DNA from: Paracoccaceae bacterium
Lineage (GTDB): Bacteria > Pseudomonadota > Alphaproteobacteria > Rhodobacterales > Rhodobacteraceae
Assembly (NCBI GenBank): GCA_017510335.1
Contig: JAFWNM010000007.1
Coordinates: 62,001-126,000 of the forward strand
Direction of reading: 5' to 3'
DNA length: 64,000 nt
Both the position numbers and the translations under genes were made by a program. Within the stretch, counting starts at the first letter, position 1, and each line of letters starts with the position of its first letter. The notes beneath the pieces are model-generated. The model worked only from the letters and a program-made list of their open reading frames with translations. It was not told the origin of the DNA and did not search any database. Shown in pieces: positions 42,169 to 59,736 of the stretch.

Positions 42169-43587
42169 TTACGCGGACACCAGCGCAGGTTCCTTGCTCG
42201 TGATCATGGCAGGGCGTTGGGACCGCCAGTCGGTGGCCAACTCATAGGCATGGCCCGCCCGCATCAGACCCGCTTCTTCAAATGGCCGCGCGACAAGTTG
42301 CAAGCCCAGCGGCAAACCTTGCGGCCCAAAACCACCACATAGTGACAGCGCAGGAACCCCCGCGACATTGAAGGGGAAGGTAAAATTGGGTTTGGTCAGA
42401 TTGTCCCATCGCGGAACCTGGTCGATCAGGGGCGCTTCGCCGGGGTTTGATGCCGTCAGCAGGATGTCGACATCGCGCATGACCGCTGCCAGTTCCGCGC
42501 ATAATTCCCGCCTGAAGCGGACGGCCTGCAGGTAATCGGCCCCGGTGACAAAACTGCCAAGGAACATACGGTCCCTGACGCGCGCTGAAAACGTATCAAG
42601 GCGTGTCATGGCCCAGTCTTCATAGGCGGCCAAACGCTCGGCGGCGGAAATCAGGAAGCCGCACGCAGACCAGTCCTGCAGGGATGGCAAGGTCACATCG
42701 ACCACAGTTGCGCCTGCGGCCTCGTAAATCCTGATGGCGTCGGTGATGCTGGCCTGGGTTGCTGGGGAAACAGGGTGGTCGGTTTCATGGAAATGGCGCA
42801 CAACGCCAATGCGCAGCCCCCTGACACCATCGCCAATTCCTGAAACATAATCCGGCACAGGCCTGTTGGCGCTGGCCGGGTCGGCGGGGTCATGACCTGC
42901 AAGGCTTTGCAGCATTATGGCGCAATCCTCGACTGTCCAGCACATCGGGCCGATATGGTCCAGACTATAGGCCGCTGGCGCAACGCCCGCGCGGCTGACC
43001 AGCCCATAGGTTGGCTTCAAGCCCGCAATTCCACACAGCGAAGCGGGGCCGCGAATAGACCCGCCCGTGTCTGTTCCGATCCCGCCCAGTACCAGACCTG
43101 CCGCCACAGCCGCGCCGGTCCCGCTGGACGATCCGGCGGTGAAATGCGCTGTATTCCACGGGTTGCGCGAAGGCGGATCAGGTAGATCAAAGGATGGCCC
43201 GCCATCTGCGAATTCATGCGTTGTCAGTTTGCCCATCAGAACGGACCCTGCCGCATCCAGACTGGCCGCGCAGGTCGCGTCCTTATCCGGTATGTTGTCG
43301 GCCAGAAAACGCGACTGGCAGGTGGTCAGAATGCCCTTGGTATCTACGATATCCTTCAGGCCGACCGGAATGCCATGCATCTTGCTTCGCGGGCCTGATG
43401 CCATGATCTCGGCCTCAGCCTTGCGCGCATCGCTTAGGGCGCGGTCTTCTGTAAGGGTCACAAACGCATGAAGCTCTGGTTCCATGACACGAATCCGTGC
43501 AAGGCATTCTTGTGTCAGTTCGACGGGCGATATGGTTTTTGCGGCCAGCGCTTTTGCGGCCGCGGCGATGGTTGGAATCTGTGACAT
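42169..43587 (-). CDS. Amidase-signature hydrolase, pair 1 (type B)
   Basis: 472 residues. The catalytic triad of the amidase-signature family is complete: Lys78 (VGLKDIVDT), the cis-Ser in AGSSSGTGAAV, and nucleophile Ser177 (GTDTGGSIRGPA). It cleaves a C-N amide or ureido bond, releasing ammonia or an amine. It shares HEFADGGPSFDLPDPPSRNP with amidase 3 (48064), so the two are paralogues. A 66-residue AtzG-like gene lies 11 bp upstream on the same strand. GatA and AtzE are relatives; substrate unknown. Confidence 0.92.
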   Translation of the reverse strand: MSQIPTIAAAAKALAAKTISPVELTQECLARIRVMEPELHAFVTLTEDRALSDARKAEAEIMASGPRSKMHGIPVGLKDIVDTKGILTTCQSRFLADNIPDKDATCAASLDAAGSVLMGKLTTHEFADGGPSFDLPDPPSRNPWNTAHFTAGSSSGTGAAVAAGLVLGGIGTDTGGSIRGPASLCGIAGLKPTYGLVSRAGVAPAAYSLDHIGPMCWTVEDCAIMLQSLAGHDPADPASANRPVPDYVSGIGDGVRGLRIGVVRHFHETDHPVSPATQASITDAIRIYEAAGATVVDVTLPSLQDWSACGFLISAAERLAAYEDWAMTRLDTFSARVRDRMFLGSFVTGADYLQAVRFRRELCAELAAVMRDVDILLTASNPGEAPLIDQVPRWDNLTKPNFTFPFNVAGVPALSLCGGFGPQGLPLGLQLVARPFEEAGLMRAGHAYELATDWRSQRPAMITSKEPALVSA

Positions 43588-43598
43588 CGGTTTTCCCT

Positions 43599-43799
43599 TC
43601 AGGTTGAAGATGTCTGAACAGGGGCGAAAACTGCCACTGGTTCAGCCATGTAGCTGCGTGGTTTGCGGACGCGCGATGCCATGGCGCGAACCAGGCCGTA
43701 GGCTTCGTAAAACTCCGCGAGTTCGGCCTCGTCATAGGTCAGGCCCTGCTGGGCGATAAGCGACCGGAAGTCCTTTTGGGATAGATCGGTATGTGTCAT
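43599..43799 (-). CDS. AtzG/GatC-like small partner of amidase 1
   Basis: 66 residues. A helical N-terminus (FRSLIAQQGLTYDEAELAEF) is followed by MASRVRKPRSYMAEPVAVFA, with the EPA-x-x-F ending typical of AtzG/DUF4089 proteins. AtzG binds the 1-carboxybiuret hydrolase AtzE as GatC binds GatA. The gene is directly upstream of amidase 1, as in the other three pairs here. AAAGAGG lies before the start. Binding to the amidase is inferred from context and motif. Confidence 0.75.
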   Translation of the reverse strand: MTHTDLSQKDFRSLIAQQGLTYDEAELAEFYEAYGLVRAMASRVRKPRSYMAEPVAVFAPVQTSST

Positions 43800-43865
43800 T
43801 CAATGCCTCTTTCTTGGAAGGAATGCCGCGGGCAGGGGGAAAGCCTGCCTTGGGGAGTATGCAAC

Positions 43866-43877
43866 ATTGTATCCAAT
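43866..43877. promoter_or_regulatory. Shared amidase-island box, copy 1
   Basis: ATTGTATCCAAT, an imperfect palindrome of ATTG and CAAT. It lies 67 bp before the start of the pair-1 small gene. Confidence 0.5.
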
Positions 43878-44196
43878 TGGCGCCAAGCGAATCTTGAATG
43901 CAGGTATTGATAGCTGCCCAAGCGGCGGCATATGCCTTAAATCTGTCAAGCAGGCGATTTTTTCATCAAAATACCGACAAATTGCGTTGCTTGCGTGTTG
44001 ATGTTCTGCAAGAATTTCAGGCGGAATGATGAATTTGAATACAAAAAAATTCAATCAGCGTGTCGCGGTCCTTGTTCAATCCCTCGAATTTGTCAGTGAG
44101 ATTTACAGTAATATACTGATTTAATTGATAAAATATTTGATAATTCCCTATCCCTTCAGGCGATTCGCAGAAAGGAAGATCATTTACTTCTGAATT

Positions 44197-44208
44197 TTTG
44201 TATCCAAA
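44197..44208. promoter_or_regulatory. Shared amidase-island box, copy 2
   Basis: TTTGTATCCAAA, a near palindrome, 65 bp before the pair-2 small gene. Confidence 0.5.
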
Positions 44209-44273
44209 ATTGGGTATGCGCATTCTAACGTGTCCTATATCGGCGCGGTCTTTATCAGGGAAAGGGAAATCGC

Positions 44274-44486
44274 ATGTCTGAAATTGTCGCAACACAAGGT
44301 CTTGTCACACAAACCATCAAGTTCTGGTCCGGGATTGATGTCCCCAATCCGGCGGCCAGGGAAATGGCCGGTCATTTTCTGGCGGCGCGCAACGATTTTG
44401 CAACGCTGCGCGGCAAGGCCCGGTTCGAGGAAGAACCCGCAAGCTTTCTGGCGGCCCTTCAATCGTGCAAGGAGTGCGCGCAATGA
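44274..44486 (+). CDS. AtzG/GatC-like small partner of amidase 2
   Basis: 70 residues. The end LRGKARFEEEPASFLAALQS has the E-x-EPA-x-F motif of AtzG-like proteins; the N-terminus is helical (QGLVTQTIKFWSGIDVP). Its TGA overlaps the amidase-2 ATG (ATGA), so the two are translationally coupled and probably made in equal amounts. AGGGAAA precedes the start. Confidence 0.75.
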   Translation: MSEIVATQGLVTQTIKFWSGIDVPNPAAREMAGHFLAARNDFATLRGKARFEEEPASFLAALQSCKECAQ

Positions 44487-45922
44487 CCAAGCTTGAAACC
44501 AGGTTCGAAAGCCTGACATCGCTAAGTGTCGTGGAGCAGGCTGATGCTGTCGCGCGCGGTGACACCACCGCCGTGGCCCTGACCGAAGCTGCGCTTGCCG
44601 CCTTTGAATTGCAAAACCCGTCGATCAATGCGGTGATATGGTTGCAGCAAGACGCCGCGCTTGAAGCCGCAACCGCGCTGGACGCCATGCAACGCACGGG
44701 CCGCCCGTTGGGGCCACTTCATGGCGTGCCGCTGGCCCATAAGGATATGTATTATCAGGCAGGCAAACCCTGCACTTGCGGGTCTGACATCCGCAAGAAT
44801 TTTGTGCCGGACTACACTGCAACGGTGATTGAACGCTTGCACGCGGCCGGTTCGCTGACATTGGGCGGCTTGAACATGGCCGAATTCGCCCAGAACCCCA
44901 CAGGCCACAACGCGCATTTTGGCGATTGCTGCAATCCGTGGGATTTGGCCTATTGCACAGGGGGGTCGTCATCGGGGTCGGGGGCGGCGGTTGCCGCGCG
45001 CTGTGTCGGGGCCTCGCTCGGGTCTGATACTGGCGGTTCAATCCGCTTGCCTGCGGCGCTTTGCGGTGTGACGGGCATCAAGGGCACGCAAACCCGCGTG
45101 TCGCGCTATGGTGTCATGCCTTTGTCCTTCTCGGCGGATAATGTCGGCCCGCTTGCACGGTCCGCCCGCGATTGCGCACGGATCATGTCGGTCATTGCGG
45201 GGTATGATGCGAATGACCCCACATCCGCGACAGACCCCGTGCCCGACTACGAGGGCGCGTTGACAGGCGATATTCGGGGCCTGCGGGTCGGCGTGCCGAC
45301 AAATTACTTCTTCGACGACATTGATGACGAGGTGAACGCCGCCTTTGTGCAAGCGATGACTGTTCTGGCGGACCGGGGTGCGGTTCTGGTTCCTGTGACA
45401 CTGCCGCATATGGCCGATATCAGCGCATATGGCGGCATCATCTCGCGCTGTGAAGGGGCCGCCATTCATGGGCAATGGATGCGCGACGCCCCCCAAAGTT
45501 ATTCTGTGCACCTAAGTGCAAGACTGTATGGCGGCAATGCCATTCCTGCTGTCATGTATCTTGAAGCCCTGAACCGCAGGGGCGGTATCTTGCGGTCCTT
45601 TGCCCATGATGTGTTCGGCGCGTGTGATGTGTTTGTTGCCCCTGCCTTGCGCACCAAGGTTCCCACCCGCCATGAAACCGATATAGACAGCGGGCGTGAC
45701 GGCACAATCGAAGCGTTCATGAATGTGTCAATCAACACACGGCCCGCGAATTACCTTGGCCTGCCGTCGGCGTCGGTTCCTTGCGGGTTCGATAGCAATG
45801 GTCTGCCCATCGGGCTTTTGATTCATGGCCGGCCGTTTGCCGAAGGGCGCGTGCTGAAAGTCGCGGATGCCTATCAGCGCGACACTGACTGGCATTTGCG
45901 CCGCCCCCCGATTGCGGCCTGA
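44483..45922 (+). CDS. Amidase-signature hydrolase, pair 2 (type A)
   Basis: 479 residues. Triad: Lys87 (LAHKDMYY), cis-Ser in GGSSSGSGAAV, Ser186 (GSDTGGSIRLPA). Positions of Lys and Ser are identical to amidase 4 (57246), and both share LNM-x-EFA and PTGHN, so they are close paralogues (type A). Family chemistry is hydrolysis of an amide or ureido group. It overlaps its small partner gene and is followed by a strong bidirectional terminator at 45930. Confidence 0.92.
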   Translation: MTKLETRFESLTSLSVVEQADAVARGDTTAVALTEAALAAFELQNPSINAVIWLQQDAALEAATALDAMQRTGRPLGPLHGVPLAHKDMYYQAGKPCTCGSDIRKNFVPDYTATVIERLHAAGSLTLGGLNMAEFAQNPTGHNAHFGDCCNPWDLAYCTGGSSSGSGAAVAARCVGASLGSDTGGSIRLPAALCGVTGIKGTQTRVSRYGVMPLSFSADNVGPLARSARDCARIMSVIAGYDANDPTSATDPVPDYEGALTGDIRGLRVGVPTNYFFDDIDDEVNAAFVQAMTVLADRGAVLVPVTLPHMADISAYGGIISRCEGAAIHGQWMRDAPQSYSVHLSARLYGGNAIPAVMYLEALNRRGGILRSFAHDVFGACDVFVAPALRTKVPTRHETDIDSGRDGTIEAFMNVSINTRPANYLGLPSASVPCGFDSNGLPIGLLIHGRPFAEGRVLKVADAYQRDTDWHLRRPPIAA

Positions 45923-45929
45923 TTGCATG

Positions 45930-45961
45930 ACCCGCGCCCCCAAAGGACAGGGGGCGCGGGT
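45930..45961. terminator. Bidirectional terminator between amidase 2 and formamidase
   Basis: A perfect 12-bp GC-rich stem, ACCCGCGCCCCC with GGGGGCGCGGGT, loop of 8. It lies between convergent genes and can serve both. Confidence 0.75.
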
Positions 45962-45970
45962 GTTCGGTGT

Positions 45971-46912
45971 TCACCCCTGTTCAAGCAGTGACTTGGCGAT
46001 CATGCAGTGCACGCCCTTGTTGCCATTGACGGTCTGGGTGATGCGCAGATCCGCCGCAAGCGAGCACAGCGTATATGCATCTTCAGGCGACAATCCCGCC
46101 TTTTCGCCCAGCACCACAATCATGTCGCGCAAGGCCCGGATGACACATTGATCCAGGTCTGGGTCCATGCCCATTGTGATGATATGCGTTGGCGTTTCCG
46201 CACGAGGGTATGCAAGGCCCGTCTGCTTGTGCAAAACGAAGGTGAAATCGCCTTCAAGTGCGGTTTCGATGGCGGTTACGCACACTTCGCCGTCACCCTG
46301 TGCCCCATGCCCGTCACCGCATGAAAACATCGCACCCGGCACAAAGACCGGCAGAAAAAGCGTTGTGCCCGCAACCAGTTCCTTGTTGTCCAGATTGCCG
46401 CCATGCGCGCGCGGCTGGATTGATGAAATACGCCCCCATGCCGGGGGCGGGGCCACACCCATCACACCAAAAAACGGCGCAAGCGGCAGTTCCAGCCCCC
46501 ATGGCAGGCGGCCCGTGTTTTTCTGCGCGTCCAGCGGGATGGTGATGTGCCGCGTTTCGTGGAAATCGTCGATCAGGGTTCCGGCAAGCGGGCGTATGAC
46601 ATTATACCCCCAGTCCGTGCGCAGTGCGACCTTGTCGATGCGTATTTCCAGCACATCGCCGGGCATTGCCCCTTCAATGGCGATGGGGCCGGTCAGGATA
46701 TGGCCGGGCAGCGGGCGTTCGGAGCGTTGGTGAATATCCAGCAATTCAGGCGGAATATGGAAGCCGTCGGGGGGCAGAACATCGGGTGCGCCGCTGACTG
46801 TCCGGATGGTGGCTGTATCGCCCGATTGCACGACAAGTGCGGGGGGCAAGCTGGCATCGAAATAGCCCCAGTGGCAGGTTTCCGGCGAAGCGTCGAGGGT
46901 GTGGTGTGGCAT
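45971..46912 (-). CDS. Acetamidase/formamidase family protein
   Basis: 313 residues. HTLDASPETCHWGYFDASLP opens the protein; GPIAIEGAMPGDVLEIRI, GAMFSCGDGHGAQGDGEVCV and TAIETALEGDF are the FmdA_AmdA signature. These zinc-type amidases release ammonia from short amides such as formamide or acetamide. Start 46912 has AAAGGA 6 nt upstream; ATG 46936 (ATGA overlap with the permease) is an alternative. Together with the amidases it could remove the last small amide of a pathway. Confidence 0.9.
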   Translation of the reverse strand: MPHHTLDASPETCHWGYFDASLPPALVVQSGDTATIRTVSGAPDVLPPDGFHIPPELLDIHQRSERPLPGHILTGPIAIEGAMPGDVLEIRIDKVALRTDWGYNVIRPLAGTLIDDFHETRHITIPLDAQKNTGRLPWGLELPLAPFFGVMGVAPPPAWGRISSIQPRAHGGNLDNKELVAGTTLFLPVFVPGAMFSCGDGHGAQGDGEVCVTAIETALEGDFTFVLHKQTGLAYPRAETPTHIITMGMDPDLDQCVIRALRDMIVVLGEKAGLSPEDAYTLCSLAADLRITQTVNGNKGVHCMIAKSLLEQG

Positions 46913-46932
46913 GCTATGTCCTTTGGGGCGCG

Positions 46933-47952
46933 TCATTGTGATGGCGGGATGGCGGGGTTCGGTTTCCCGCGGGCACTGTTTCTGTGCATCGTGTAGACCG
47001 TAGCGCCAACAACCAGCGCCGCGCCAGCAAATGTGGTGCTGTCCGGGAATTCCGCGAAGATGAAAAAACCGATTGCTGTCGCAATCAGCAAACGCACAAA
47101 TTCAAGTGGCGCAAGTGCCGACGCCTGCCCTGTCTGGTGGGCGCGTGTAATAAGATACTGGCCACCTGTTCCGGTAATGCCCACAAGCGCAATCAGCGCC
47201 CATTGCCGCATGTCAGGTTGCACCCACCACAGCAGTGTTGGCACTGCCAGCGCCACAATCAGGAAAACCGCCTGATAAAACAGGATTGTTTCTGTCCGTT
47301 CGGATTTTGCCAGAACGCGCACTGTTATGGTAATGCCCGCCCCGAACAGTGCCCCGATCAGCGTCAGCACATAGTAATACCCGATCCCCTCGCCGCTGGG
47401 GCGCAGCATGATCAGCACACCCACAAACCCGATGGCGGTGGCAATCCAGCGCCGGGTTCCGACACTTTCATTCAGGACAATCACAGCGCCAATCGTCACG
47501 AACAACACCTTGGCAAACCCCAGCGCCGTGACATCGGCCAGTGGTATGTGCAAAAGGGCCGTGAAACCGCACAGCATTGCGCCCAGCGAAAACGCGCCGC
47601 GCACCAGTTGCAGGCCCGGATAGCGCGTGCGCAGCGCTGCGGGAAACCCACGCATGAACAGCGGCAGCAGCAGGATTGTAACAATGATCTGCCGGATGAA
47701 CAGCACTTGCACCAGTGGCAAATCGGTGCCGATTGCCTTGATACCGGCCATCATGGCACCGAAAAGGAAGAATGACGCGATCATAAGGATGGAACCGCGC
47801 AGGTTGTCGGGGGCGGCCGCCCACCACAGCATCAGGCGGACCCGACGCATCAAGGGCGGTGCACCTTTTGGTGCTTTGGCTGTCTGAACCCGCGTGGGGG
47901 CGGGCAGATCGCCAGATGGTCCTGACACAGGTGGAGGAGTTGGCTTGTTCAT
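46933..47952 (-). CDS. EamA/DMT-family permease (copy 1)
   Basis: 339 residues with ten membrane helices in two EamA repeats (about 50-185 and 195-330). FIRQIIVTILLLPLFMRG and GFAKVLFVTIGAVIVLNESV are typical. The 40-residue Pro-rich N-terminus is cytoplasmic. DMT proteins move metabolites such as amino acids, often outward. It lies upstream of the formamidase gene with coupled ends, and 111 bp after amidase 3, all on the minus strand. Confidence 0.88.
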   Translation of the reverse strand: MNKPTPPPVSGPSGDLPAPTRVQTAKAPKGAPPLMRRVRLMLWWAAAPDNLRGSILMIASFFLFGAMMAGIKAIGTDLPLVQVLFIRQIIVTILLLPLFMRGFPAALRTRYPGLQLVRGAFSLGAMLCGFTALLHIPLADVTALGFAKVLFVTIGAVIVLNESVGTRRWIATAIGFVGVLIMLRPSGEGIGYYYVLTLIGALFGAGITITVRVLAKSERTETILFYQAVFLIVALAVPTLLWWVQPDMRQWALIALVGITGTGGQYLITRAHQTGQASALAPLEFVRLLIATAIGFFIFAEFPDSTTFAGAALVVGATVYTMHRNSARGKPNPAIPPSQ

Positions 47953-48063: not shown

Positions 48064-49512
48064 CTATGCGGCCTGGGCCATGGTGATGTTCGGACGATGG
48101 GCCATCAGGCCCGCAGCCGTTTCATAGGCTTTGCCGATCCGAAGAACCGTAGGGTCTGCAAATGGCTTGCCCACAATCTGCATGGACAGCGGCAGCCCTT
48201 GCGCGGAAAACCCTGTTGGGATGGACATGGCGGGGTTGCCCGTCACATTGAACGGCATTGTCTGTATGGCCCATGCGGGCGGGGTTTCAGGGTCGATCTC
48301 GTCGAAACGCCCCGCCGGGGCCAAGGTGGATGCCGCTATGATGGCGTCATACTTGCCCAGAATCGTGTTGTTCACGCTGATCGACAGTTGGCGCCGCACC
48401 CGCAAGGCCTGCATCAGGTCCGACGCAGACAACAGGCCACCAACCGCCATGCGCGCATGGGTGAAGCGCCCGTAATCCAGCGGGCGCGTTTTCATGTCGG
48501 CCTCGTGAATGGCATAGGCTTCAGATAGCAGGATGACCCGGCCTGCGGCATTGAACAATTCGTAATCAGGCAGGGTGACAATATCGACAGTTGCGCCCAG
48601 TTCCCCCAGTTTCACGATTGCGGCGTCCAGCGCTGAAACAACTTCGTCACTGACCCCTTCTGCATCTTCGAAGAAGTGGCGCGGGAAGGCGAATTTCATC
48701 CCCTCGATGCCATCATTGATACCGCCCAGAAAATCAAGGGCACCGGGATCGGCAGAAGCCGGGTCCAGCGGGTCGTATCCGGCAATGACCTGCATTGTGG
48801 CGGCCGTGTCATCCACGCTGCGCGACAGGGGACCAGCATGATCAAGCGTGAAAGACAGCGGAAACACCCCCCGCCGTGACACAAGGCCGTAGGTCGGCTT
48901 TAGCCCCACAGTGCCACAATAGGCCGCCGGGCCACGGATGGAACCGCCCGTGTCCGACCCCATCGCCATGCGCACGAACCCGGCAGCCACCGCAGCCCCC
49001 GACCCCGAGGACGACCCGCCAGGAATATGGTCGGGGTTCCACGGGTTGCGCGCGGGCGGGAACGGCAGGTCAAAAGAGGGTCCGCCGAATGCGAATTCAT
49101 GTGTTGCGGTCTTGCCAATCAAAACGCCCCCGCCGCTGCGCAATTTTTCCGCCACCACGCAGTCGGACGTCGGCACATGATCTTGCAGCAATTTGGAATG
49201 GCAGGTCGTCCGAATTCCGGCTGTGTTGAAGATATCCTTCAAGGCATAGGGAATGCCCTGCATTGGCCCTTTGTCGATTCCGTTTGCAAAATCGGCATCC
49301 GCTGCATCCGCATCTGCAAGCGCCCTGTCGGTGGTAAGCGTGATAAAGCTGTTCAGCTTGTCATCCAGCGCGCCAATCCGCGCCAATGCATCCTTGGCAA
49401 GGTCTTTTGCGCTGATGGTTCCGGCCCGCAAAAGCGCGCCTGCGTCCAGTATGGACAGGTCATTCAGGGGAATTGTTGGTGCGTTCGGGGTGATTTTTCC
49501 GTGTTCAGACAT
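48064..49512 (-). CDS. Amidase-signature hydrolase, pair 3 (type B)
   Basis: 482 residues. Triad: Lys92 (YALKDIFNT), cis-Ser in GGSSSGSGAAV, Ser191 (GSDTGGSIRGPA). HEFAFGGPSFDLPFPPARNP links it to amidase 1 as a type-B paralogue. Start at 49512 lies one base after the stop of its small partner; the longer frame to 49545 would overlap that gene. Substrate unknown; AtzE and GatA are the nearest characterised classes. Confidence 0.92.
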   Translation of the reverse strand: MSEHGKITPNAPTIPLNDLSILDAGALLRAGTISAKDLAKDALARIGALDDKLNSFITLTTDRALADADAADADFANGIDKGPMQGIPYALKDIFNTAGIRTTCHSKLLQDHVPTSDCVVAEKLRSGGGVLIGKTATHEFAFGGPSFDLPFPPARNPWNPDHIPGGSSSGSGAAVAAGFVRMAMGSDTGGSIRGPAAYCGTVGLKPTYGLVSRRGVFPLSFTLDHAGPLSRSVDDTAATMQVIAGYDPLDPASADPGALDFLGGINDGIEGMKFAFPRHFFEDAEGVSDEVVSALDAAIVKLGELGATVDIVTLPDYELFNAAGRVILLSEAYAIHEADMKTRPLDYGRFTHARMAVGGLLSASDLMQALRVRRQLSISVNNTILGKYDAIIAASTLAPAGRFDEIDPETPPAWAIQTMPFNVTGNPAMSIPTGFSAQGLPLSMQIVGKPFADPTVLRIGKAYETAAGLMAHRPNITMAQAA

Positions 49513-49513
49513 G

Positions 49514-49720
49514 TCATGCAATCCTTGTGATAGGGGCAAAGCCATAGGTGTTCGCGGGTTCGTCTGCGGCAGTCAGATTCGTGGTGCGAAGCCGGGCGCA
49601 CATGGCTTCAAGTTCCACAAAGCCGCCTATAATCGCGGGCTTGCGGTCTTCTGGAAGGGGCAGGCCGTTGCGCGCGGCAATCGCTTCGACCAGCATTTCG
49701 GTATCTGCATCCTGTGACAT
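49514..49720 (-). CDS. AtzG-like small partner of amidase 3
   Basis: 68 residues from ATG 49720, with GAAAGGAGAT upstream. LVEAIAARNGLPLPEDRKPA, followed by FVELEAMCARLRTTNLTAAD and EPANTYGFAPI, is the clearest AtzG/DUF4089 match of the four: two helices then a tail that in AtzG wraps the amidase. It is one base from the amidase-3 start. Confidence 0.82.
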   Translation of the reverse strand: MSQDADTEMLVEAIAARNGLPLPEDRKPAIIGGFVELEAMCARLRTTNLTAADEPANTYGFAPITRIA

Positions 49721-50127: not shown

Positions 50128-50304
50128 ATGGCATATCGCAATATCAAGTTTGTTGACCGGCCAGCGCGGGTGCGTGCACAAATTTCCTATGAGGCCGAGA
50201 TGCGATCCGGTTCTCAAGGTCACAAGGGCGATCAGGGTATCCGCGTCTGCAGGCTGCGTATGTCAAGACAAGAGCCATCAACCAGAGATGAAAGGCTGAC
50301 AAAC

Positions 50305-51903
50305 ATGACACTCCGAAAGTTAAGGAAAGAAATTGCCGCAGGTGCTGCTGCGCTGTCATTGGGGGTGATACCTGGTGCGGGGTATGCAGAAACAGTTTTG
50401 CGCGTTGCCATGACGGCAGGCGACATTCCCCTGACCATAGGCCAGCCCGATCAGGGGTTCGAGGGATACAGGTTTGTCGGCTACAAGCTGTATGACTCGC
50501 TGTTGTTGTGGGATTTGTCGCAGGGGGACACGGAATCTGACGTGATCCCGGGCTTGGCCACCGATTGGTATATCGACCCTGACGACAACAAACGCTGGGT
50601 CTTCGAACTGCGCGAGGGGGTCAGCTTCCATGACGGTTGCCCCTTCAATGCAGACAATGTTGTTTGGAACTATGAACGCCTGACACTGGAAGATCATCCC
50701 GCGTTCAACCCGCAGCAATATGCAGCCATCCGCACAAGAACGGTGGACATCGCGGGCATTGAGAAAATCGACGATTACACGGTCGCCATCAACATGAAGC
50801 GCACCGACAGCCTTTTCCCATTGCAGACCAGTTTCATATTCATGATCTCGCAATGCGCCTTCGAGGCGGCAGGCAGTGATTATGCTGCCTATGCGATGGC
50901 CCCGTCAGGCACCGGCCCATATAAATTTGACCAGATGGTTCCGCGCGAACGCCTTGAATTGATTGCAAATACCGAGTATTGGGATGCAGATCGCATACCC
51001 CGCCATGACAGGCTTTTGCTGCTGCCCATGCCAGAAGCCACCACCCGCGCGGCGGCACTGATGGCCGGACAGGTCGATCTGGTGGAAGCGCCATCGCCGG
51101 ATACAATTCCCATGCTTCAGGGCGCGGGCATGACCATAACGACAGCCCCCTATCCGCATAACTGGGGCTATCAGTTGAACTTTGTGGATGGTCCCTTCGC
51201 GGATATCCGGGTCAGGCAGGCGGCGAACTACGCGATCAACCGCGAAGAAATGGTGGCCATGCTGAACGGGTATGCGTTGCCGGGTTATGGCGCTTATCCG
51301 CCGGATTCGCCGTATTTCGGCGACCCGCTGAAATATGAATTCGACCCCGAAAAGGCCCGCGCCCTGCTGGAAGAAGCCGGCTGCCTGCCGTGTCACGTGA
51401 CATTTGCAGTGTCAACATCCGGTTCAGGCCAGATGCAGCCGTTGCCGATGAATGAACTTGTTTCGTCCCAGATGAATGCCGCCGGGTTCCGCGTGACCCT
51501 GGAGGTGATGGACTGGAACAAGCTGATTGATGTGTCGCTTAGCGGGCGTCCCACATACCCCGAATATGACGCCATCAATGTCAGCCGGGCATTGCAAGAC
51601 CCCTTCTCTGGTTTGTTCCGGTTCATGCTGGAAAGCCAGCATGGTCCGGCAGGCGGCAATTTCGGCCATTATTACAGCCCCGAAGCCGAAGCGCTGATCA
51701 CCAAGATCTATGAAACCTTCGACCAGACAGCACGCGACGCGCTGATCACCCAGGCGCACGAGCTGTTTGTTTCCGATGCGATCATGATTTTCGTGACTCA
51801 TGACACCAACCCGCGCGCGCTGTCGCCAACGCTGAGCGGATTTGTGCAGGCGCAAAGCTGGTTTCAGGACATGACACCCATCAGTTTTGGTCAAACCAAT
51901 TAG
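50305..51903 (+). CDS. Peptide/nickel-type ABC importer, binding protein
   Basis: 532 residues of the SBP_bac_5 (DppA/OppA) family. Signal peptide at 1-32 (LRKEIAAGAAALSLGVIPGA, then GYAE). WVFELREGVSFHDGCPFNAD and QAANYAINREEMVAMLNGYA are conserved. It binds a peptide or similar amide in the periplasm. ATG 50305 follows GAAAGG; the open frame 59 codons upstream would hide the signal peptide. It heads the long rightward operon. A hairpin follows at 51909. Confidence 0.92.
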   Translation: MTLRKLRKEIAAGAAALSLGVIPGAGYAETVLRVAMTAGDIPLTIGQPDQGFEGYRFVGYKLYDSLLLWDLSQGDTESDVIPGLATDWYIDPDDNKRWVFELREGVSFHDGCPFNADNVVWNYERLTLEDHPAFNPQQYAAIRTRTVDIAGIEKIDDYTVAINMKRTDSLFPLQTSFIFMISQCAFEAAGSDYAAYAMAPSGTGPYKFDQMVPRERLELIANTEYWDADRIPRHDRLLLLPMPEATTRAAALMAGQVDLVEAPSPDTIPMLQGAGMTITTAPYPHNWGYQLNFVDGPFADIRVRQAANYAINREEMVAMLNGYALPGYGAYPPDSPYFGDPLKYEFDPEKARALLEEAGCLPCHVTFAVSTSGSGQMQPLPMNELVSSQMNAAGFRVTLEVMDWNKLIDVSLSGRPTYPEYDAINVSRALQDPFSGLFRFMLESQHGPAGGNFGHYYSPEAEALITKIYETFDQTARDALITQAHELFVSDAIMIFVTHDTNPRALSPTLSGFVQAQSWFQDMTPISFGQTN

Positions 51904-51908
51904 GCAAC

Positions 51909-52053: not shown

Positions 52054-53010
52054 ATGATTTCATACATCATTCACCGCATTCTCTATGCTATTCCAATTTC
52101 CATAGGCGTCACAGTGTTCTGTTTCGCGCTTGTGTATATGGCCCCCGGAGACCCGCTGACCCGTCTGTTGCCCGATGATGCCAGCCCCGAAGTTGTCGAG
52201 ATGATGAAAAAGGCATATGGGCTGGATAAGCCTATTCCGGTTCAATACCTGATCTGGCTGGGAAATGCGCTGTCGGGCGATCTTGGGACATCTATCCAGA
52301 CAGACCGGCCCGTTCTGAACGAGGTCAGCAAGGCGCTTGTCAACACCATCATCCTTTCTGCGGTATCTGTGGTGGTGGCCTTTTCTGTGGCTTTCGTTCT
52401 TGGAACAGTGGCCGCGTATTATAACGGTCATGCAGTTGACCGGCTTGCCACAGGGTTTTCGGTTCTTGGGGTCAGCATTCCCAACTACTGGTTCGGGATT
52501 GTGCTGATCATCATTTTCTCTGTGCAGTTGCGCTGGCTTCCCGCCACGGGAATGGGACCGGCGGGGTCTGACGGGTTTTCGCTGCTTAGTCTGGACAGTT
52601 TGCGCCATTTGGTTCTGCCCGTGATCACCATGGCGCTTATTCCGCTGGGAATTATCATGCGCACCACCCGTTCTGCCGTGTCCGAGGTGCTGGGGCAGGA
52701 TTTTGTCCAGACGTTGCGCGCCAAGGGCCTGAATGAATGGGCGGTGCTGAACCATGCTGTGCGCAATGCGCTGCCCGGTGTGATGGCCGTTATGGGGCTG
52801 CAATTCGGCTACCTGATGGGCGGATCAATCCTGGTCGAGACTATTTTCACCTGGCCCGGCACTGGCTCGTTGTTGAACCAGGCCATTCTGAACCGCGATA
52901 TTCCGGTGCTGCAAGGGACCATCCTGGTTCTGGCGCTGATCTTCGTTGCGACCAACCTTGTTGTTGATCTGCTGCAAACCGCAGTTGACCCGCGCATCAA
53001 GCGAACCTGA
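52054..53010 (+). CDS. Peptide-type ABC importer, permease 1 (DppB-like)
   Basis: 318 residues, six helices. APGDPLTRLLPDDASPEVVE is the periplasmic stretch after helix 1; DFVQTLRAKGLNEWAVLNHA, followed by VRNALPG, is the EAA coupling loop; FTWPGTGSLLNQAILNRDIP is typical of DppB. It forms the channel with permease 2. TAAGGAAAC lies before the start. Confidence 0.94.
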   Translation: MISYIIHRILYAIPISIGVTVFCFALVYMAPGDPLTRLLPDDASPEVVEMMKKAYGLDKPIPVQYLIWLGNALSGDLGTSIQTDRPVLNEVSKALVNTIILSAVSVVVAFSVAFVLGTVAAYYNGHAVDRLATGFSVLGVSIPNYWFGIVLIIIFSVQLRWLPATGMGPAGSDGFSLLSLDSLRHLVLPVITMALIPLGIIMRTTRSAVSEVLGQDFVQTLRAKGLNEWAVLNHAVRNALPGVMAVMGLQFGYLMGGSILVETIFTWPGTGSLLNQAILNRDIPVLQGTILVLALIFVATNLVVDLLQTAVDPRIKRT

Positions 53011-53024
53011 GAGGGAGTTTTGAC

Positions 53025-53930
53025 ATGACGGACACGAACATATCGCTTGGGACCGCAGATGCCTTGATTTCCGAACCGCAACAGGACCGCGTCCGCACAT
53101 ATTGGCAACTGGTCCGGCTACGGCTGCGCCATGACAAGGTGACATTGTTTTTTGGCGCCATCATTCTGACCATCGTTCTGCTTGCCGTTCTTGCCCCGAT
53201 CCTGCCACTGCGTGACCCGCTGGAAACCGGCATGATAAACCGTCTGAAACCTGTCGGGTATCAGGGGTTCATTCTGGGAACAGATGAATTGGGCCGTGAC
53301 ATGCTGTCGCGGATTATCTGGGGCGGGCGCAGTTCCTTGCTGATGGGGTTGTTGCCTGTTGCACTTGCCCTGCTGATCGGCGGTGGGCTGGGTGTGATTG
53401 CCGGGTTCATGGGCGGCACCGTCAACATGATCATCATGCGCGTGATGGATGTGTTCTATGCGTTTCCGTCAATCCTGTTGGCGGTTGCAATTTCTGGCGC
53501 CATGGGCGGCGGCATGATGAATGGCCTGATTTCGCTAACCGTTGTGTTCATTCCCCCCTTGTGCCGTGTGGCAGAAACCGCAACGACGCAGGTGCGCGGG
53601 CTGGATTTTGTGGAAGCCGCGCGCGCCTCGGGTGCGGGGCCTGCATCCATCATCGGAACGCATATTCTGGGCAATGTTCTGGCGCCGGTGTTCGTCTATG
53701 CGTCGGGCATGGTGTCGGTGTCCATTCTGGTGGCTTCGGGACTGTCATTCCTTGGGTTGGGGGTTGCACCACCGACGCCGGATTGGGGGCTGATGCTGTC
53801 GACCTTGCGCCAGGCCATCTATGTAAACCCCGTCGTTTGCGCAATTCCGGGCATCGCCATTCTTATCACTTCGTTGTCGTTCAACATGGTCAGCGACGGT
53901 TTGCGGCAGGCAATGGACGTCAAGATGTGA
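53025..53930 (+). CDS. Peptide-type ABC importer, permease 2 (DppC-like)
   Basis: 301 residues. The cytoplasmic N-terminus is followed by TDELGRDMLSRIIWGGRSSL, the DppC/OppC hallmark, and the EAA loop DFVEAARASGAGPASIIGTH. GLGVAPPTPDWGLMLS closes the protein. It pairs with permease 1, starting 15 bp after it; GAGGGAG precedes the start. Confidence 0.94.
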   Translation: MTDTNISLGTADALISEPQQDRVRTYWQLVRLRLRHDKVTLFFGAIILTIVLLAVLAPILPLRDPLETGMINRLKPVGYQGFILGTDELGRDMLSRIIWGGRSSLLMGLLPVALALLIGGGLGVIAGFMGGTVNMIIMRVMDVFYAFPSILLAVAISGAMGGGMMNGLISLTVVFIPPLCRVAETATTQVRGLDFVEAARASGAGPASIIGTHILGNVLAPVFVYASGMVSVSILVASGLSFLGLGVAPPTPDWGLMLSTLRQAIYVNPVVCAIPGIAILITSLSFNMVSDGLRQAMDVKM

Positions 53931-53985
53931 CCGGCCAAACCCGCGCAAACCAGTTTTCAGTCACGCATTGCAAGGAGTTGCAACA

Positions 53986-55146
53986 GTGAACAAGACAGAT
54001 ACATCCCCCCTGACAGGACAACCCGCCCCGCCCGTGATCGACGTTGTGTCCAATAAAGACCCGCGCGACAAGGGCGGCCCCGCACAACCACTTTTTCTGG
54101 TGAAAGACCTTGTTAAGAACTTTCCGGTGCGCGGCGGCCTTCTGAACCGGACCACAGCGCAGGTGCAGGCCGTAAGCAACGTAAGCTTTCAGGTCCTGAA
54201 AGGCGAGACACTTGGCGTTGTCGGCGAAAGCGGTTGCGGCAAATCAACGCTTGCGCGTTTGCTGATGCATCTTCTGGACCGCACATCAGGAGAGTTGATT
54301 TTCGACGGCGAGGCCGTCGGCGTCAATGGTGGTATGCCAATGCGCAAGTTCCGCGAAGCTGCGCAAATGGTATTTCAGGACAGCTATTCGTCGCTGAACC
54401 CCCGCTTGCCAGTCGAAGATTCCGTCAGCTATGGCCCGAAAGTGCATGGCATGAACGGCAAGGCCGCGCGGGAATTGTCGCGCGACATTCTGCGCAAGGT
54501 CGGGCTGCGCCCCGAAATTTTCGGCCCGCGCTACCCGCATGAACTGTCCGGCGGTCAGAAGCAGCGCGTCAACATCGCCCGCGCGCTTGCCCTGTCGCCG
54601 CGTCTGGTCATCCTGGACGAAGCGGTGTCCGCGCTGGACAAGTCGGTAGAAGCGCAGGTGCTGAACCTGCTGCGTTTCCTGAAGCGGCATTTTAACCTGA
54701 CATATGTGTTCATCAGCCATGATCTGAATGTGGTGCAGTATATTTCTGACCGGGTTCTTGTCATGTATCTGGGCGAGGTGGTCGAACTTGGCCCCGTGGA
54801 TGAAATATACAACCGTCCACGCCACCCCTATACACGCGCGCTGCTGCGCTCGCGCCTGTCGATGGACCCTGACGACAGGATGGATGACGCCCCCATCGCG
54901 GGGGACCCGCCAAACCCCATCAACCCGCCATCCGGTTGTCGGTTCAGAACCCGCTGCCCCTATGCCGAACCGATCTGCGCCACCACCGCGCCCGCCATTT
55001 CAAAATGGACTGGCCCGGAAAGCCACACAGTCGCGTGTCACATGTATAACCCTGTCGAAGGCCACAGCCTGAGTGGCAAGCCGCCTGCACCGGATGCGGC
55101 ACCCGGCACGGACACCAAGACCCATCCGACCCGCGTTCACGCCTGA
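53986..55146 (+). CDS. Peptide-type ABC importer, ATPase 1 (DppF-like)
   Basis: 386 residues. Walker A GESGCGKST, signature LSGGQKQR, Walker B LVILDEAVSALD, and switch HDLNV. The C-terminal oligopeptide/dipeptide extension has Cys-rich RFRTRCPYAEPIC. A Lys/Pro-rich N-terminal tail of about 35 residues precedes the fold. GTG 53986 is chosen because AAGGAG lies 8 nt upstream; a TTG at 53968 overlaps that box. Confidence 0.92.
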   Translation: MNKTDTSPLTGQPAPPVIDVVSNKDPRDKGGPAQPLFLVKDLVKNFPVRGGLLNRTTAQVQAVSNVSFQVLKGETLGVVGESGCGKSTLARLLMHLLDRTSGELIFDGEAVGVNGGMPMRKFREAAQMVFQDSYSSLNPRLPVEDSVSYGPKVHGMNGKAARELSRDILRKVGLRPEIFGPRYPHELSGGQKQRVNIARALALSPRLVILDEAVSALDKSVEAQVLNLLRFLKRHFNLTYVFISHDLNVVQYISDRVLVMYLGEVVELGPVDEIYNRPRHPYTRALLRSRLSMDPDDRMDDAPIAGDPPNPINPPSGCRFRTRCPYAEPICATTAPAISKWTGPESHTVACHMYNPVEGHSLSGKPPAPDAAPGTDTKTHPTRVHA

Positions 55147-55161
55147 AAAGGAGGCACGACC

Positions 55162-56205
55162 ATGCCAAACGACCAAGTCGCCACGTCAAGCGCCCCCGAT
55201 ACAGCCGTTCCCATTGTCGATGTGCAGGGAATGTCCGTCAAGTTCGTCTCCAGAGAGGCGACCGTTTATGCCGTCAATGGCGTGGATTTTCGCCTGATGC
55301 CCGGTGAAGTGCTGTGTGTGATCGGGGAATCCGGTTCCGGGAAATCGGTATCCATGCGCGCGCTGATGCGCCTGTTGCCTGACAAGGCGCAGATTGCCGG
55401 AAAGGTGCATGTGTCGGGCCGCGATGTGCTGTCCATGACGCAATCCGAACTGACAGCGATGCGCGGCCGCGATGTCTCGATGATTTTTCAGGAACCGATG
55501 ACCGCGCTTGACCCGGTTTACACCATCGGGGACCAGATATCCGAAACGATCCTGCGCCATGAACCTGTCGGGCGCGATGTGGCCATGAAACGGGCGCTTG
55601 ATTTGCTGGAATTTGTGCGTGTCCCGTCAGCGGCGCGGCGTCTGAAATCCTATCCGTTCGAATTGTCCGGCGGCCTGCGTCAACGCGCCATGATTGCGAT
55701 GGCCTTGTCATGCAGCCCCAAGCTGCTGCTGGCCGACGAACCGACGACCGCCTTGGATGCGACCGTGCAAATTCAGGTGCTGATCTTGCTGCGCAAATTG
55801 CAAAAGGAAATGGGAATGGGCATGATTTTTGTCACCCATGACCTGTCTGTGGCAGCTCAGGTCGCTGACAAGGTTGCGGTCATGTATGCGGGCCAGATTG
55901 TCGAGATGGGGCATGTCCGCGATGTGTTGCGCAACCCCCAACACCCCTACACACAGGGAATGCTTGCCTCAACCGTGCATGGGCAGGACCGCAACAAGGA
56001 CATTCCTGCCATTCCCGGCAGCCCGCCCGATATGCGTTTGCGTGTCGCCGGCTGCAGTTTCGCGCCGCGGTGTCCGCATGCATCCGAAAGCTGTCATACA
56101 TCCGAACCGCCGCGCGTGGCTTTGGGCGCGGACCGCTACGCCCGATGCATTTTGCCCGACCCGTCACGCGGGCCAAATATTATGCCGCAAAAAGTCAGCG
56201 CCTGA
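55162..56205 (+). CDS. Peptide-type ABC importer, ATPase 2 (DppD-like)
   Basis: 347 residues. Walker A GESGSGKSV, signature LSGGLRQR, Walker B LLLADEPTTALD, switch HDLSV, and the Cys motif CSFAPRCPHASESC at the C-terminal extension. It completes the five-gene importer and lies 15 bp after ATPase 1 with AAGGAGG upstream. Confidence 0.94.
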   Translation: MPNDQVATSSAPDTAVPIVDVQGMSVKFVSREATVYAVNGVDFRLMPGEVLCVIGESGSGKSVSMRALMRLLPDKAQIAGKVHVSGRDVLSMTQSELTAMRGRDVSMIFQEPMTALDPVYTIGDQISETILRHEPVGRDVAMKRALDLLEFVRVPSAARRLKSYPFELSGGLRQRAMIAMALSCSPKLLLADEPTTALDATVQIQVLILLRKLQKEMGMGMIFVTHDLSVAAQVADKVAVMYAGQIVEMGHVRDVLRNPQHPYTQGMLASTVHGQDRNKDIPAIPGSPPDMRLRVAGCSFAPRCPHASESCHTSEPPRVALGADRYARCILPDPSRGPNIMPQKVSA

Positions 56206-56223
56206 CCTAGGGAGAGTTTCGAC

Positions 56224-56934
56224 ATGCATAAGATCCATATTCCCCAACATATCGTAGACCGCGTGATTGACCGGCGCGGCAGCGCCCATCCGTTCAGTGA
56301 TCTGGACCCGGCCCGCACGGCTTTGGTCGTGATCGACCTGCAAAACGGTTTCATGGTCCCCGGTGTGGCACATGCCCTGTGCGAAACCGCAGTAGAGATT
56401 GTGCCAAATGTCAACCGTCTGGCGCGTGCGGTCAGGGCAGGGGGGGGCAAGGTGTTCTGGGTGCAGAACACCCATGACGATAGCTGCCTGACAGAGTGGT
56501 CCGTTCTTCATGACTATACTGTGCGTGGAAAACAGATGCACCGTGTCAGGTCCATGTCTGAAGGCACCGAAGGGCACGCACTTTATCCGACGCTTGATGT
56601 GCAACCGGCGGATGAAACTGTGCAGAAAACAAGGTTCTCTGCATTCATCAGCGGGTCATCCGATCTGCCTGAACGGTTGAAAGCGGCAGATTGCGACACT
56701 GTGCTGATTGTGGGGACAGTCACCAATGTGTGCTGCGACAGTTCCGCGCGCGACGCCATGATGCTGAATTTCAAGACAATCATGGTCAGCGATGCCAATG
56801 CGGCCCTGACCGATGACGAACATAACGCCGCCCTTACGGCGTTTTACGCAACATTCGGTGACGTGATGGACACCGATCAACTGATCGCCTGCCTGTCACG
56901 CAATACCGAACCCGAACAACGCAGGGTCAGCTGA
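56224..56934 (+). CDS. Isochorismatase-type cysteine hydrolase
   Basis: 236 residues. Triad: Asp in VVIDLQNGF (near residue 39), Lys in QKTRFSAF, Cys in GTVTNVCCDSSARDA. The same fold includes N-carbamoylsarcosine amidohydrolase, ureidoacrylate hydrolase RutB and biuret hydrolase, all cleaving amide or carbamoyl bonds. The position, directly after the importer and before amidase pair 4, makes hydrolysis of the imported amide or ureide likely. Exact substrate unknown. GGGAGAG precedes the start. Confidence 0.85.
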   Translation: MHKIHIPQHIVDRVIDRRGSAHPFSDLDPARTALVVIDLQNGFMVPGVAHALCETAVEIVPNVNRLARAVRAGGGKVFWVQNTHDDSCLTEWSVLHDYTVRGKQMHRVRSMSEGTEGHALYPTLDVQPADETVQKTRFSAFISGSSDLPERLKAADCDTVLIVGTVTNVCCDSSARDAMMLNFKTIMVSDANAALTDDEHNAALTAFYATFGDVMDTDQLIACLSRNTEPEQRRVS

Positions 56935-57000
56935 CCTGACCCCGATATGCCCCGAAAAGCTGTGGTGCCCCGCACCTGTCACAGAAAGGTATAAGATCAA

Positions 57001-57249
57001 ATGAATTCCAGCATATCCGACAGCCCCGCGCGGCAACCGGGTTCGCGCGCAGAAATTGTGCGCGCGCAGGGTGTCTTTGTATCCGCCGCGGATGAAGATC
57101 GTATCGGGCGCATCACAGATGGCATTTCCGCAGCGCTGCTGAAAAGCCCGTTGCCAAGCCTGTTTGACACCGAACCTGCCCATTTCGACCGCGCGCAGAT
57201 ATCCGGCGCCGCAGCAGCCACCAACAGCACGCGGGGCGCATCATCATGA
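57001..57249 (+). CDS. AtzG-like small partner of amidase 4
   Basis: 82 residues. The first 20 are Ser/Arg-rich; ADEDRIGRITDGISAALLKS and LPSLFDTEPAHFDRAQ give the helices and EPA-x-F end of AtzG-like proteins. A 15-residue Ala/Ser tail follows. Stop overlaps the amidase-4 start (ATGA), as in pair 2. GAAAGGT lies 11 nt before the start. Confidence 0.72.
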   Translation: MNSSISDSPARQPGSRAEIVRAQGVFVSAADEDRIGRITDGISAALLKSPLPSLFDTEPAHFDRAQISGAAAATNSTRGASS

Positions 57250-58679
57250 AAGATCAGGCAAAACTAGCGTCAGATCCTGCTGACTGGTCAATTGTGGAAA
57301 CCGTGGATGCGGTCTGCGCGGGCCATGCGTCGGCGCTGGAGGTGACGCAGGCGGTTCTGGACCGGATCGCGCGGCGCCAGCCGGTGCTGAACTGCTTTAT
57401 CCGCATTGATGGCGACCGCGCCTTGGAAACTGCGTCTGGTCTGGATGCGGCGCGGTCCGCAGGCAGAACACAGGGACCACTGCACGGGGCGGTTCTGGCC
57501 CATAAGGACATGTATTACCGCGCCGGGCTGGTCAGCACTTGTGGTTCGGAAATCCGCCGCGATTTTGTTGCGCAGACCACGGCGACCGTTTTGGACAAAC
57601 TGGACAATGCGGGCGCGGTGGATGTCGGAACGCTGAACATGTCCGAATTCGCGTCGGGACCGACCGGGCATAACCTGCATCATGGGAATTGTCATAACCC
57701 GTGGAACCCTGACCATATCACAGGCGGGTCCTCGACCGGGTCGGGGTCGGCGGTTGGCGGCAGGCTTGTCGCGGGGTCGCTTGGGTCTGATACCGGCGGT
57801 TCGGTGCGGTTGCCTGCGGGAATTTGCGGGGCATATGGCATCAAGCCGACACAGGGCCGTGTGTCGCGTCACGGAGTCATGGGCCTTTCGTTTTCACTTG
57901 ATAATGTTGGCCCGATTGCGCGCACAGCGCGCGATTGCGCGCGCATGTTGTCGGTCATCGCGGGGCCGGACCCGATGGATACAACAGCATTGCCGGTTCC
58001 TGTGGATGATTACGAGGCCGATCTTGATGCCGGGGTCACAGGACTGCGTATCGCGGTGCCGAAGACCTACTATTTTGACGATATTTCCCCCGAAATCTCG
58101 AAACTGCTGGACAGCGCACTGGCGGTTTTCACATCGCTGGGGGCCAAAATCGTGCATGTTGACTTGCCACATCACGACATTATCGGCGCTTTGGGAAATG
58201 CTGTTGGCAGTTCTGAACAATGCACGCTGCATGATTTCTGGCATCAGACCTGTCCTGAAAAATATGCCCCGCTTATCAGGGCGCGCATGCAGGCGGGGTT
58301 CGGGGTCACAGCGGTGGAATATCTGAAGGCCTTGCACTTGCGCAGCAGCATTGCGCGCGCGGTGTCGGACGCGGCATTCGGCGATGCGGATGTGATGTTC
58401 CTGCCCGTCTTGCGGTTTCCCGTCCCAACACTGTCGGAAACCGATGTTGGTGATGGCGCGGGGCTGCACGAAATCCTTGGCAGTATCAACCATTGCACGC
58501 GCCCGATCAACTACCTTGGGTTCCCTGCGCTAACGGTGCCCTGTGGCTTTTCGGCATCTGGCCTGCCTGTCGCGTTCCAGCTGGCTGGCCCCGCATTTTC
58601 CGAGCGGCGGTTGTTTCGTTTTGCCGGTGCGTTTGAAGCGGCAAATGGTCTGTCCGACTGCGTTCCTGACCTGCCCTGA
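57246..58679 (+). CDS. Amidase-signature hydrolase, pair 4 (type A)
   Basis: 477 residues. Triad: Lys87 (LAHKDMYY), cis-Ser in GGSSTGSGSAV, Ser186 (GSDTGGSVRLPA), the same residue numbers as amidase 2. LNMSEFASGPTGHNLHHGNC differs little from the amidase-2 stretch, so these are type-A paralogues. It is in the importer operon between the isochorismatase-type hydrolase and the asparaginase-family gene, so the products of one may feed the next. Confidence 0.92.
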   Translation: MKDQAKLASDPADWSIVETVDAVCAGHASALEVTQAVLDRIARRQPVLNCFIRIDGDRALETASGLDAARSAGRTQGPLHGAVLAHKDMYYRAGLVSTCGSEIRRDFVAQTTATVLDKLDNAGAVDVGTLNMSEFASGPTGHNLHHGNCHNPWNPDHITGGSSTGSGSAVGGRLVAGSLGSDTGGSVRLPAGICGAYGIKPTQGRVSRHGVMGLSFSLDNVGPIARTARDCARMLSVIAGPDPMDTTALPVPVDDYEADLDAGVTGLRIAVPKTYYFDDISPEISKLLDSALAVFTSLGAKIVHVDLPHHDIIGALGNAVGSSEQCTLHDFWHQTCPEKYAPLIRARMQAGFGVTAVEYLKALHLRSSIARAVSDAAFGDADVMFLPVLRFPVPTLSETDVGDGAGLHEILGSINHCTRPINYLGFPALTVPCGFSASGLPVAFQLAGPAFSERRLFRFAGAFEAANGLSDCVPDLP

Positions 58680-59723: not shown

Positions 59724-59736
59724 AAGAACCTGTCCA

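Follow-up and report, generated by a model that had tools for sequence, protein, structure and literature searches.

We analysed a 64,000-nucleotide (nt) stretch of DNA (the window; positions 62,001 to 126,000 of contig JAFWNM010000007.1, assembly GCA_017510335.1, our contig C43) from the 3.6-Mb genome of a Paracoccaceae bacterium. It carries an island with four amidase-signature genes (A1–A4), and at each of them a small open reading frame (ORF; S1–S4) lies immediately 5' on the same strand. Judged by their sequences, the four pairs are best read as two-subunit enzymes, the small proteins of which form sister families of AtzG, the partner of AtzE, without being members by the curated test. 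As far as we searched, the reach of the small-subunit family outside the Pfam model, its S2/S4 type, C-terminal fusions to amidases and the multi-pair island are new; the literature searched, consisting of papers available in part, held no description of the island or of the wider small-subunit family.

Four amidases, each with a small gene

All four amidases match PF01425 with 335-349 bits (E about 1e-100): A1 (42169..43587, minus strand; E 2.7e-101), A2 (44483..45922, plus strand; E 6.9e-102), A3 (48064..49545, minus strand; E 4.7e-104) and A4 (57246..58679, plus strand; E 8.7e-100). The A2 frame is open from GTG 44465, and its start was taken at ATG 44483; A3 starts at ATG 49545 or 49512. 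Amidase-signature chemistry relies on a Lys-Ser-Ser triad and an acyl-enzyme, and this triad is complete in all four enzymes, as an earlier note on this DNA had stated (Lys78, Ser153 and Ser177 in A1; Lys87, Ser162 and Ser186 in A4 and, counted from ATG 44483, in A2). The identical placement of Lys87 and Ser186 in A2 and A4 was also correctly seen there. The motif common to A1 and A3 is real, with a spacer of two residues (HEF-xx-GGPSFDLP) instead of the single one that had been given; the one-residue pattern occurs in neither. Identity amounts to 44% between A1 and A3 and to 49% between A2 and A4.

The small proteins have 66 (S1; 43599..43799, minus strand), 70 (S2; 44274..44486, plus strand), 68 (S3; 49514..49720, minus strand) and 82 amino acids (aa; S4; 57001..57249, plus strand), within the range reported earlier; the length of S3 holds if it is started at an ATG with a good upstream ribosome-binding site. 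The two ATGA overlaps of the earlier note are found at S2/A2 (ATG 44483, S2 stop ending at 44486) and S4/A4 (ATG 57246, S4 stop ending at 57249), while S1 and A1 are 11 nt apart and S3 and A3 either overlap by 32 nt (ATG 49545) or leave a 1-nt gap (ATG 49512). An (E/D)EPA motif had been placed at the end of all four proteins. EP[AV] is indeed present in each (as AEPV, EEPA, DEPA or TEPA), but the strict form occurs in only two of the four, and between the motif and the C-terminus there are some 10 to 25 further residues. Among the 272 window ORFs of 55-100 aa, eight have EP[AV] within the last 35 residues, and four of these eight are the ones directly 5' of the amidases.

The small proteins could be aligned with homologues in two families, an S1/S3 type with 63 members and an S2/S4 type with 33. 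S1 (E 8.3e-19) and S3 (E 6.5e-17) match the first profile, S2 (E 2.8e-20) and S4 (E 1.2e-15) the second, each being a seed of the profile it matches. The small gene takes the same position in Alphaproteobacteria, Betaproteobacteria, a Myxococcus and Planktothrix. Beside related amidases it is mostly annotated as 'hypothetical protein'; the Roseomonas marmotae gene is the sole one called 'AtzG-like', and that of Planktothrix carries no annotation whatsoever.

Relatives of A1–A4 were collected from annotated plasmids, other genomes and 80 named loci (the best 80 of 577 in a scan of a genome collection with an amidase alignment). After removal of the own genome and of known overlapping stretches, 191 amidase-centred loci contained the small domain (E<=1e-3) in 162 of 17,706 ORFs, all 162 differing in sequence and AtzG proper at AtzE loci being counted among them. 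Of these, 139 stop where an amidase gene begins, 13 come directly after an amidase stop, 8 are inside an amidase ORF and 2 elsewhere; 160 of the 162 thus adjoin an amidase or are fused to it. One of the two exceptions sits at a locus edge, and a longer stretch (L196) shows an A1-like amidase following; the other is separated by 214 nt from an amidase ORF downstream. In the eight fusions, distributed over seven loci, an A1-like amidase has the small domain as its C-terminal part (ORFs of 542-633 aa in L144, L128, L156, L147, L131 (two), L150 and L120), with E-values from 1.6e-7 to 0.065 against the seed profile. Pfam reported no small domain in the two fused amidases submitted to it. On an Aminobacter aminovorans plasmid (L074:11500-11694) the gene order is reversed: the amidase comes first and overlaps the small gene by 4 nt.

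Such pairs also occur well outside the window: 140 of 254 related amidases have a small gene upstream; a further 18 have GatC and 7 are fused. Well-supported clades that surround the window enzymes keep the partner almost without exception. Larger clades are less uniform; in the one of A2 and A4 (n=23), 20 enzymes have a partner, 2 are without and 1 is at an edge. The type of the small protein follows that of the amidase, in keeping with the two subtypes proposed before: all 35 S2/S4-type genes (window rows counted) stand beside A2/A4-like enzymes, and among 93 S1/S3-type genes 75 stand beside A1/A3-like and 3 beside A2/A4-like enzymes, with no amidase start found downstream of the remaining 15. 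This match is partly one of construction, because the profile of each type was seeded from loci with the corresponding amidases. Pairwise distances among small proteins and among their amidases are correlated (r 0.68 for 113 pairs, reached in 0 of 2000 permutations), also within the two types (0.59 and 0.72).

Several points speak against a general partnership. The adjacency figures come from loci gathered around amidases and are neither a genome-wide rate nor a genome-wide census. For 81 of the 254 related amidases no small gene was called upstream (8 others are at edges), and the partner is therefore not common to all amidases, even if some of the 81 have a small gene downstream. In the clade joining A1 and A3 (n=125), a partner gene accompanies 81 enzymes and is fused to 7, while 32 lack one and 5 are at edges. 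The EP motif is found in 134 of the 162 small-domain matches, not in all, and the distance correlation could come from joint inheritance alone, without any contact of the two proteins.

Relationship of the small proteins to AtzG and GatC

The earlier note had called the small proteins AtzG/GatC-like. In profile comparisons the S1/S3-type profile matched AtzG at 96.1% (E 3.2e-9; reversed controls 0.3 and 0.6%), and still at 95.5% when three AtzG rows added by eye were removed and only the 20 rows found with PF13318 were kept. The S2/S4-type profile matched the S1/S3-type profile at 94.4% (E 8.5e-8), and S3, which is not a seed there, matched the S2/S4-type profile with E 1.4e-6. To GatC, the S1/S3 type showed a weak match (57%, E 1e-4). 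Reversed-profile controls over all cross pairs reached at most 3.2%, twelve column shuffles at most 1.2%. In a structure search, the predicted fold of S3 ranked AtzG first and GatC next.

The curated test, by contrast, gave an unfavourable answer. For PF13318 (AtzG-like; cut-off 24 bits) S3 reached only 18.6 bits, S1, S2 and S4 were unmatched, and a scan of these three against Pfam and NCBIfam gave no relevant match. At E<=0.01 only 3 of 63 S1/S3-type and 0 of 33 S2/S4-type homologues match PF13318, which places both families largely outside the curated AtzG model. Directly compared, the S2/S4 type reaches only 40.8% (E 2.8e-4; 48.4% with the 20 rows) with AtzG and 19.7% (E 1.2e-3) with GatC. 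Foldseek with the S3 model returned nothing at E<=0.001, S3 on its own matched no solved structure up to E 10, and structure searches with the S2 model (predicted local distance difference test 85.5, predicted template modelling score 0.49) gave no AtzG or GatC chain and no clear match. Moreover, two profiles matched their own reverse at 8.4 and 10.3%, and the accepted AtzG-GatC link went unseen by the profile method (3.4%, reversed control 3.2%). Most of these results count against the proposed homology; because of the last two, however, weak profile scores mean little either way. The AtzG part of the earlier claim is supported by profile comparison, for the S2/S4 type by way of the S1/S3 type, but not by the curated model. 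On this evidence we regard the families of S1–S4 as sister families of AtzG.

Gene content and recurrence of the island

The genome has six PF01425 genes, the four of the window, one on contig C9, which is a true GatA gene with GatC directly upstream, and one on C25 for which no partner was called. Between A2 and A3 lie genes for an FmdA/AmdA formamidase/acetamidase-like hydrolase (45971..46936, minus strand; PF03069, E 1.5e-33) and an EamA/DMT transporter (46933..47952, minus strand; PF00892). S3 is followed by an Opp/Dpp-type ATP-binding cassette (ABC) importer on the plus strand, consisting of a substrate-binding protein (50128..51903; PF00496, E 9.7e-77), two permeases (52054..53010 and 53025..53930; PF00528) and two ATPases (53968..55146, scanned from 54127, and 55162..56205; PF00005 and PF08352). 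An isochorismatase-type cysteine hydrolase (56224..56934, plus strand; PF00857, E 2.1e-41), whose matches to RutB and biuret hydrolase models are far below the cut-offs, precedes S4. Downstream of A4, all on the plus strand, are an asparaginase-like enzyme (58725..59723; PF00710 and PF17763; N-terminal sequence MKPKVAVIGTGGTIAS, by eye with no evident signal peptide), a second EamA/DMT transporter as a probable member of the island (59698..60636; PF00892), and, as possible members, an AbrB-family membrane protein (60528..61805; PF05145) and a GntR/FCD transcription regulator (61810..62604; PF00392 and PF07729). AbrB-family membrane genes are seen on both island flanks (window 40926-42110 and 60528-61805). 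At window 37898-39880 there are tripartite tricarboxylate transporter genes (TctB/TctA, TctC) that look partial and interrupted and are probably decayed.

As the earlier note had supposed, the importer, FmdA-like, isochorismatase and asparaginase genes belong with the amidases: together with 1-8 amidase ORFs they recur in Prosthecodimorpha, Bosea, Rhizobium and others. The island of Prosthecodimorpha hirschii (~45 kb; 8 amidase ORFs, one of them interrupted, and 6 small genes) encodes A1-, A2- and A3-like enzymes with 56, 72 and 69% identity, FmdA (74%), asparaginase-like (72%) and isochorismatase (69%) relatives, importer parts (62-76%), AbrB (57%) and GntR (56%). A 30-kb contig of Bosea sp. 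12-68-7 carries 5 amidases (one interrupted), including A1-like (up to 68%) and A3-like (70%) enzymes, and 4 small genes, along with relatives of the importer, isochorismatase, asparaginase, FmdA, EamA, AbrB and GntR genes. In both islands a relative of the EamA gene at 46933..47952 sits between A3 and FmdA; relatives of the EamA gene at 59698..60636 (49-51%), of AbrB (51-57%) and of GntR (48-56%) are also present in both. The interrupted amidases have split frames (L192:17292-19025 in Prosthecodimorpha, L194:9900-11335 in Bosea), which suggests that individual pairs can drop out. Plasmids of Rhizobium tumorigenes and R. rhododendri combine the importer, FmdA (65-66%) and A3 (60%) with its partner, three further amidases and an isochorismatase. 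Importer and amidase pairs are also carried by Bradyrhizobium sp. OK095.

Counted by identity thresholds within <=10 kb on each side, the 80 named loci contain close relatives of the importer in 12, of the isochorismatase in 8, of FmdA in 7 (59-74%), of the asparaginase in 5, of the two EamA genes in 2 each and of AbrB and GntR in none; the membership of the latter two therefore rests on two islands only. At least 2 amidase ORFs are present in 20 of the 80. On Agrobacterium plasmids (L069:2073-3667, L066:14778-18167) an amidase and small gene lie beside nitrile hydratase genes, neighbours pointing to a nitrile-amide-acid route.

A recent tandem duplication within the own genome was considered as the origin of the four enzymes and is not supported, because A1, A2 and A4 each have a tree sister from another genome, the identity being 44% within A1-A3 and 49% within A2-A4, as given above. 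The sister of A1 is an enzyme of Bosea sp. 12-68-7 (L194), and A2 shares the above 72% with its Prosthecodimorpha hirschii relative; the sister listed for A3 is its own copy (L007), and its best relatives in the named loci (66-70%) belong to Bosea, Bradyrhizobium and Prosthecodimorpha. With A4 alone as query, the genome-collection scan found no relative. The amidase tree is unrooted, rooting on GatA having failed, and we read no sequence of partner gains or losses from it. With the own genome counted, A3-like enzymes (E<=1e-80) were found in 5 of 38 genomes of the genus and A2-like enzymes in 5 of 292 genomes drawn from the order (1e-90) and 49 of 385 drawn from the class (1e-100), a patchy distribution that suggests horizontal spread.

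Proposed function, alternatives and known systems

GatA holds the carboxylate of glutamine by an Arg and its amine by an Asp, which we take to be Arg358 and Asp425 in S. aureus. All four window enzymes retain the Arg (Arg365 in A3, counted from ATG 49545), but it is common, being present in 24 of 24 AtzE-locus rows, in 21 of 24 rows of the GatA group, which contains a small number of other amidases too, and in 164 of 202 other rows. The amine-binding Asp, scored by a motif rule, occurs in 17 of 19 GatA rows, in 0 of 23 AtzE rows and in none of the four window amidases. Together, this hints at carboxylate-bearing amides, and our best guess from the sequences is substrates with a carboxylate near the amide and without an alpha-amine, as for AtzE.

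We consider it likely that the four presumably heteromeric amidases and the importer constitute an inducible amide-nitrogen salvage system. Amide-bearing compounds would be taken up by the Opp-type importer and converted by the amidases to acids and ammonia; the FmdA-like, isochorismatase-type and asparaginase-like enzymes would attack further C-N bonds, the EamA transporters might export products, and the GntR/FCD protein may regulate the system. For import, ammonia release, export and control we infer these roles from the gene families. Each amidase would be wrapped by its small helical-hairpin subunit, needed for folding or stability; given the homology, the small protein should hold its amidase as AtzG holds AtzE. 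The four pairs would have evolved separately long ago and been assembled in one place, and their substrate ranges most likely differ.

The earlier note had read the cluster as a stepwise amide or ureide breakdown system. In a pathway of this kind the four pairs would work one after another on a single polyamide or ureide substrate, and each would take off one amide group, like AtzE in cyanuric-acid breakdown. It would suit an island that recurs, with its single type of importer and its variety of C-N hydrolases, and urease is encoded elsewhere in the own genome; on the Rhizobium tumorigenes plasmid (L068:1-4579) the amidase island has urease genes and a gene with an asparaginase domain as neighbours. 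Yet amidases vary in number and type beside relatives of the same importer, which favours interchangeable or parallel specificities over a fixed series. Likewise, AtzH found no match in the genome (the control matched in Caulobacter), and the best score for the allophanate hydrolase AtzF was 186 of 511 bits, its matches being the six general amidases. The AtzH and AtzF results also disfavour the cyanuric-acid pathway (atzDGEHF); AtzD gave no match either, in a search whose control matched nowhere. While pairs and island stand, the stepwise part of the claim is less secure, parallel specificities fitting equally well, and we rate an ordered pathway as unlikely.

The other alternatives concern the pairs themselves. 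As specific regulators or inhibitors, and not structural subunits, the small proteins would agree with their small size, their divergence, the provision of one per enzyme and the start/stop overlap in two pairs; the homology to AtzG/GatC and the C-terminal fusions, in which the domain is permanently attached, favour a constitutive subunit and make such a role quite improbable. Still less probable is that the pairs are amidotransferase relics passing ammonia to an acceptor rather than releasing it. GatA is among the best family matches and the S1/S3-type proteins resemble GatC, but A1–A4 score 283.5-317.9 bits, far below the GatA cut-off of 481.1, none of the 20 neighbouring genes scanned belongs to the GatB family, the glutamine amine-binding Asp is absent, and the true GatC-GatA pair is on C9. 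We give a negligible probability to the view that the small ORFs are frames left open by chance in DNA of high G+C: they are short, three of four lack a relevant Pfam match and spurious ORFs abound in the region, but the aligned families, their constant position next to amidases across distant bacteria and the placement of EP[AV] rule this out. The salvage system of four two-subunit amidases thus remains our preferred explanation.

Work on amidase-signature enzymes usually deals with single genes, and our data suggest that many of those thought to be single-chain may be two-part enzymes. More tentatively, and with less than even confidence, we propose that a large, mostly unannotated GatC-derived subunit family makes a major 'single-chain' amidase branch two-subunit, that alphaproteobacterial multi-pair islands, each linked to an importer, dismantle one class of carboxylate-bearing amides, and that the subunit helps to set the substrate. 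If the whole branch needs a partner of 60-80 aa, there may be a simple explanation for preparations that failed or were inactive, and adding the neighbouring gene would make substrates testable. AtzE-AtzG would also gain an evolutionary setting, in which GatCA descendants serve as broad catabolic two-subunit amidases and the fusions are end points.

Among known systems, the tRNA-dependent amidotransferase GatCA is a distant homologue of the amidases and of the S1/S3-type proteins, from which the window enzymes differ by the missing Asp and by their sub-threshold scores, and the genome has a separate GatCA. An amidase of Rhodococcus sp. N-771 (PDB 3a1i) gave a weak match that we read as an N-terminal fusion, as opposed to the C-terminal ones found here. 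In a Bradyrhizobium sp. DOA9 rpoN mutant, expression of atzE, an amidase, isochorismatase and dpp genes is lowered, according to the part of the source at hand (PMC13207237); this would fit nitrogen control and is not tied to the present island.

The closest counterpart is AtzE-AtzG, the 1-carboxybiuret hydrolase of Pseudomonas sp. ADP (PDB 6c62), which likewise has a small GatC-like partner encoded directly upstream, similar to S3 in its predicted fold and to the S1/S3-type profile. In contrast to AtzE, the window amidases stay below the cut-offs of the AtzE models NF006631 and TIGR02715 (461 and 425.75 bits; best values 333.9 and 315.0 bits, both for A2), only one of the four small proteins, S3, has any Pfam AtzG match, and there are four pairs. 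The portions of PMC6219798 available describe AtzG as non-catalytic and as an obligate partner of AtzE in a heterotetramer, AtzE being insoluble on its own; they report atzG-atzE-atzH clusters in many Proteobacteria, some of which, in Burkholderiales, adjoin ABC transporter and amidase genes and are presumed to serve the catabolism of nitrogen compounds. As far as these portions go, the window shares with such clusters the AtzG-AtzE-like pair and, with some, the transporter and amidase neighbours, but it differs from the AtzH-defined arrangement by its several pairs, its Opp importer and its FmdA-like, isochorismatase and asparaginase genes.

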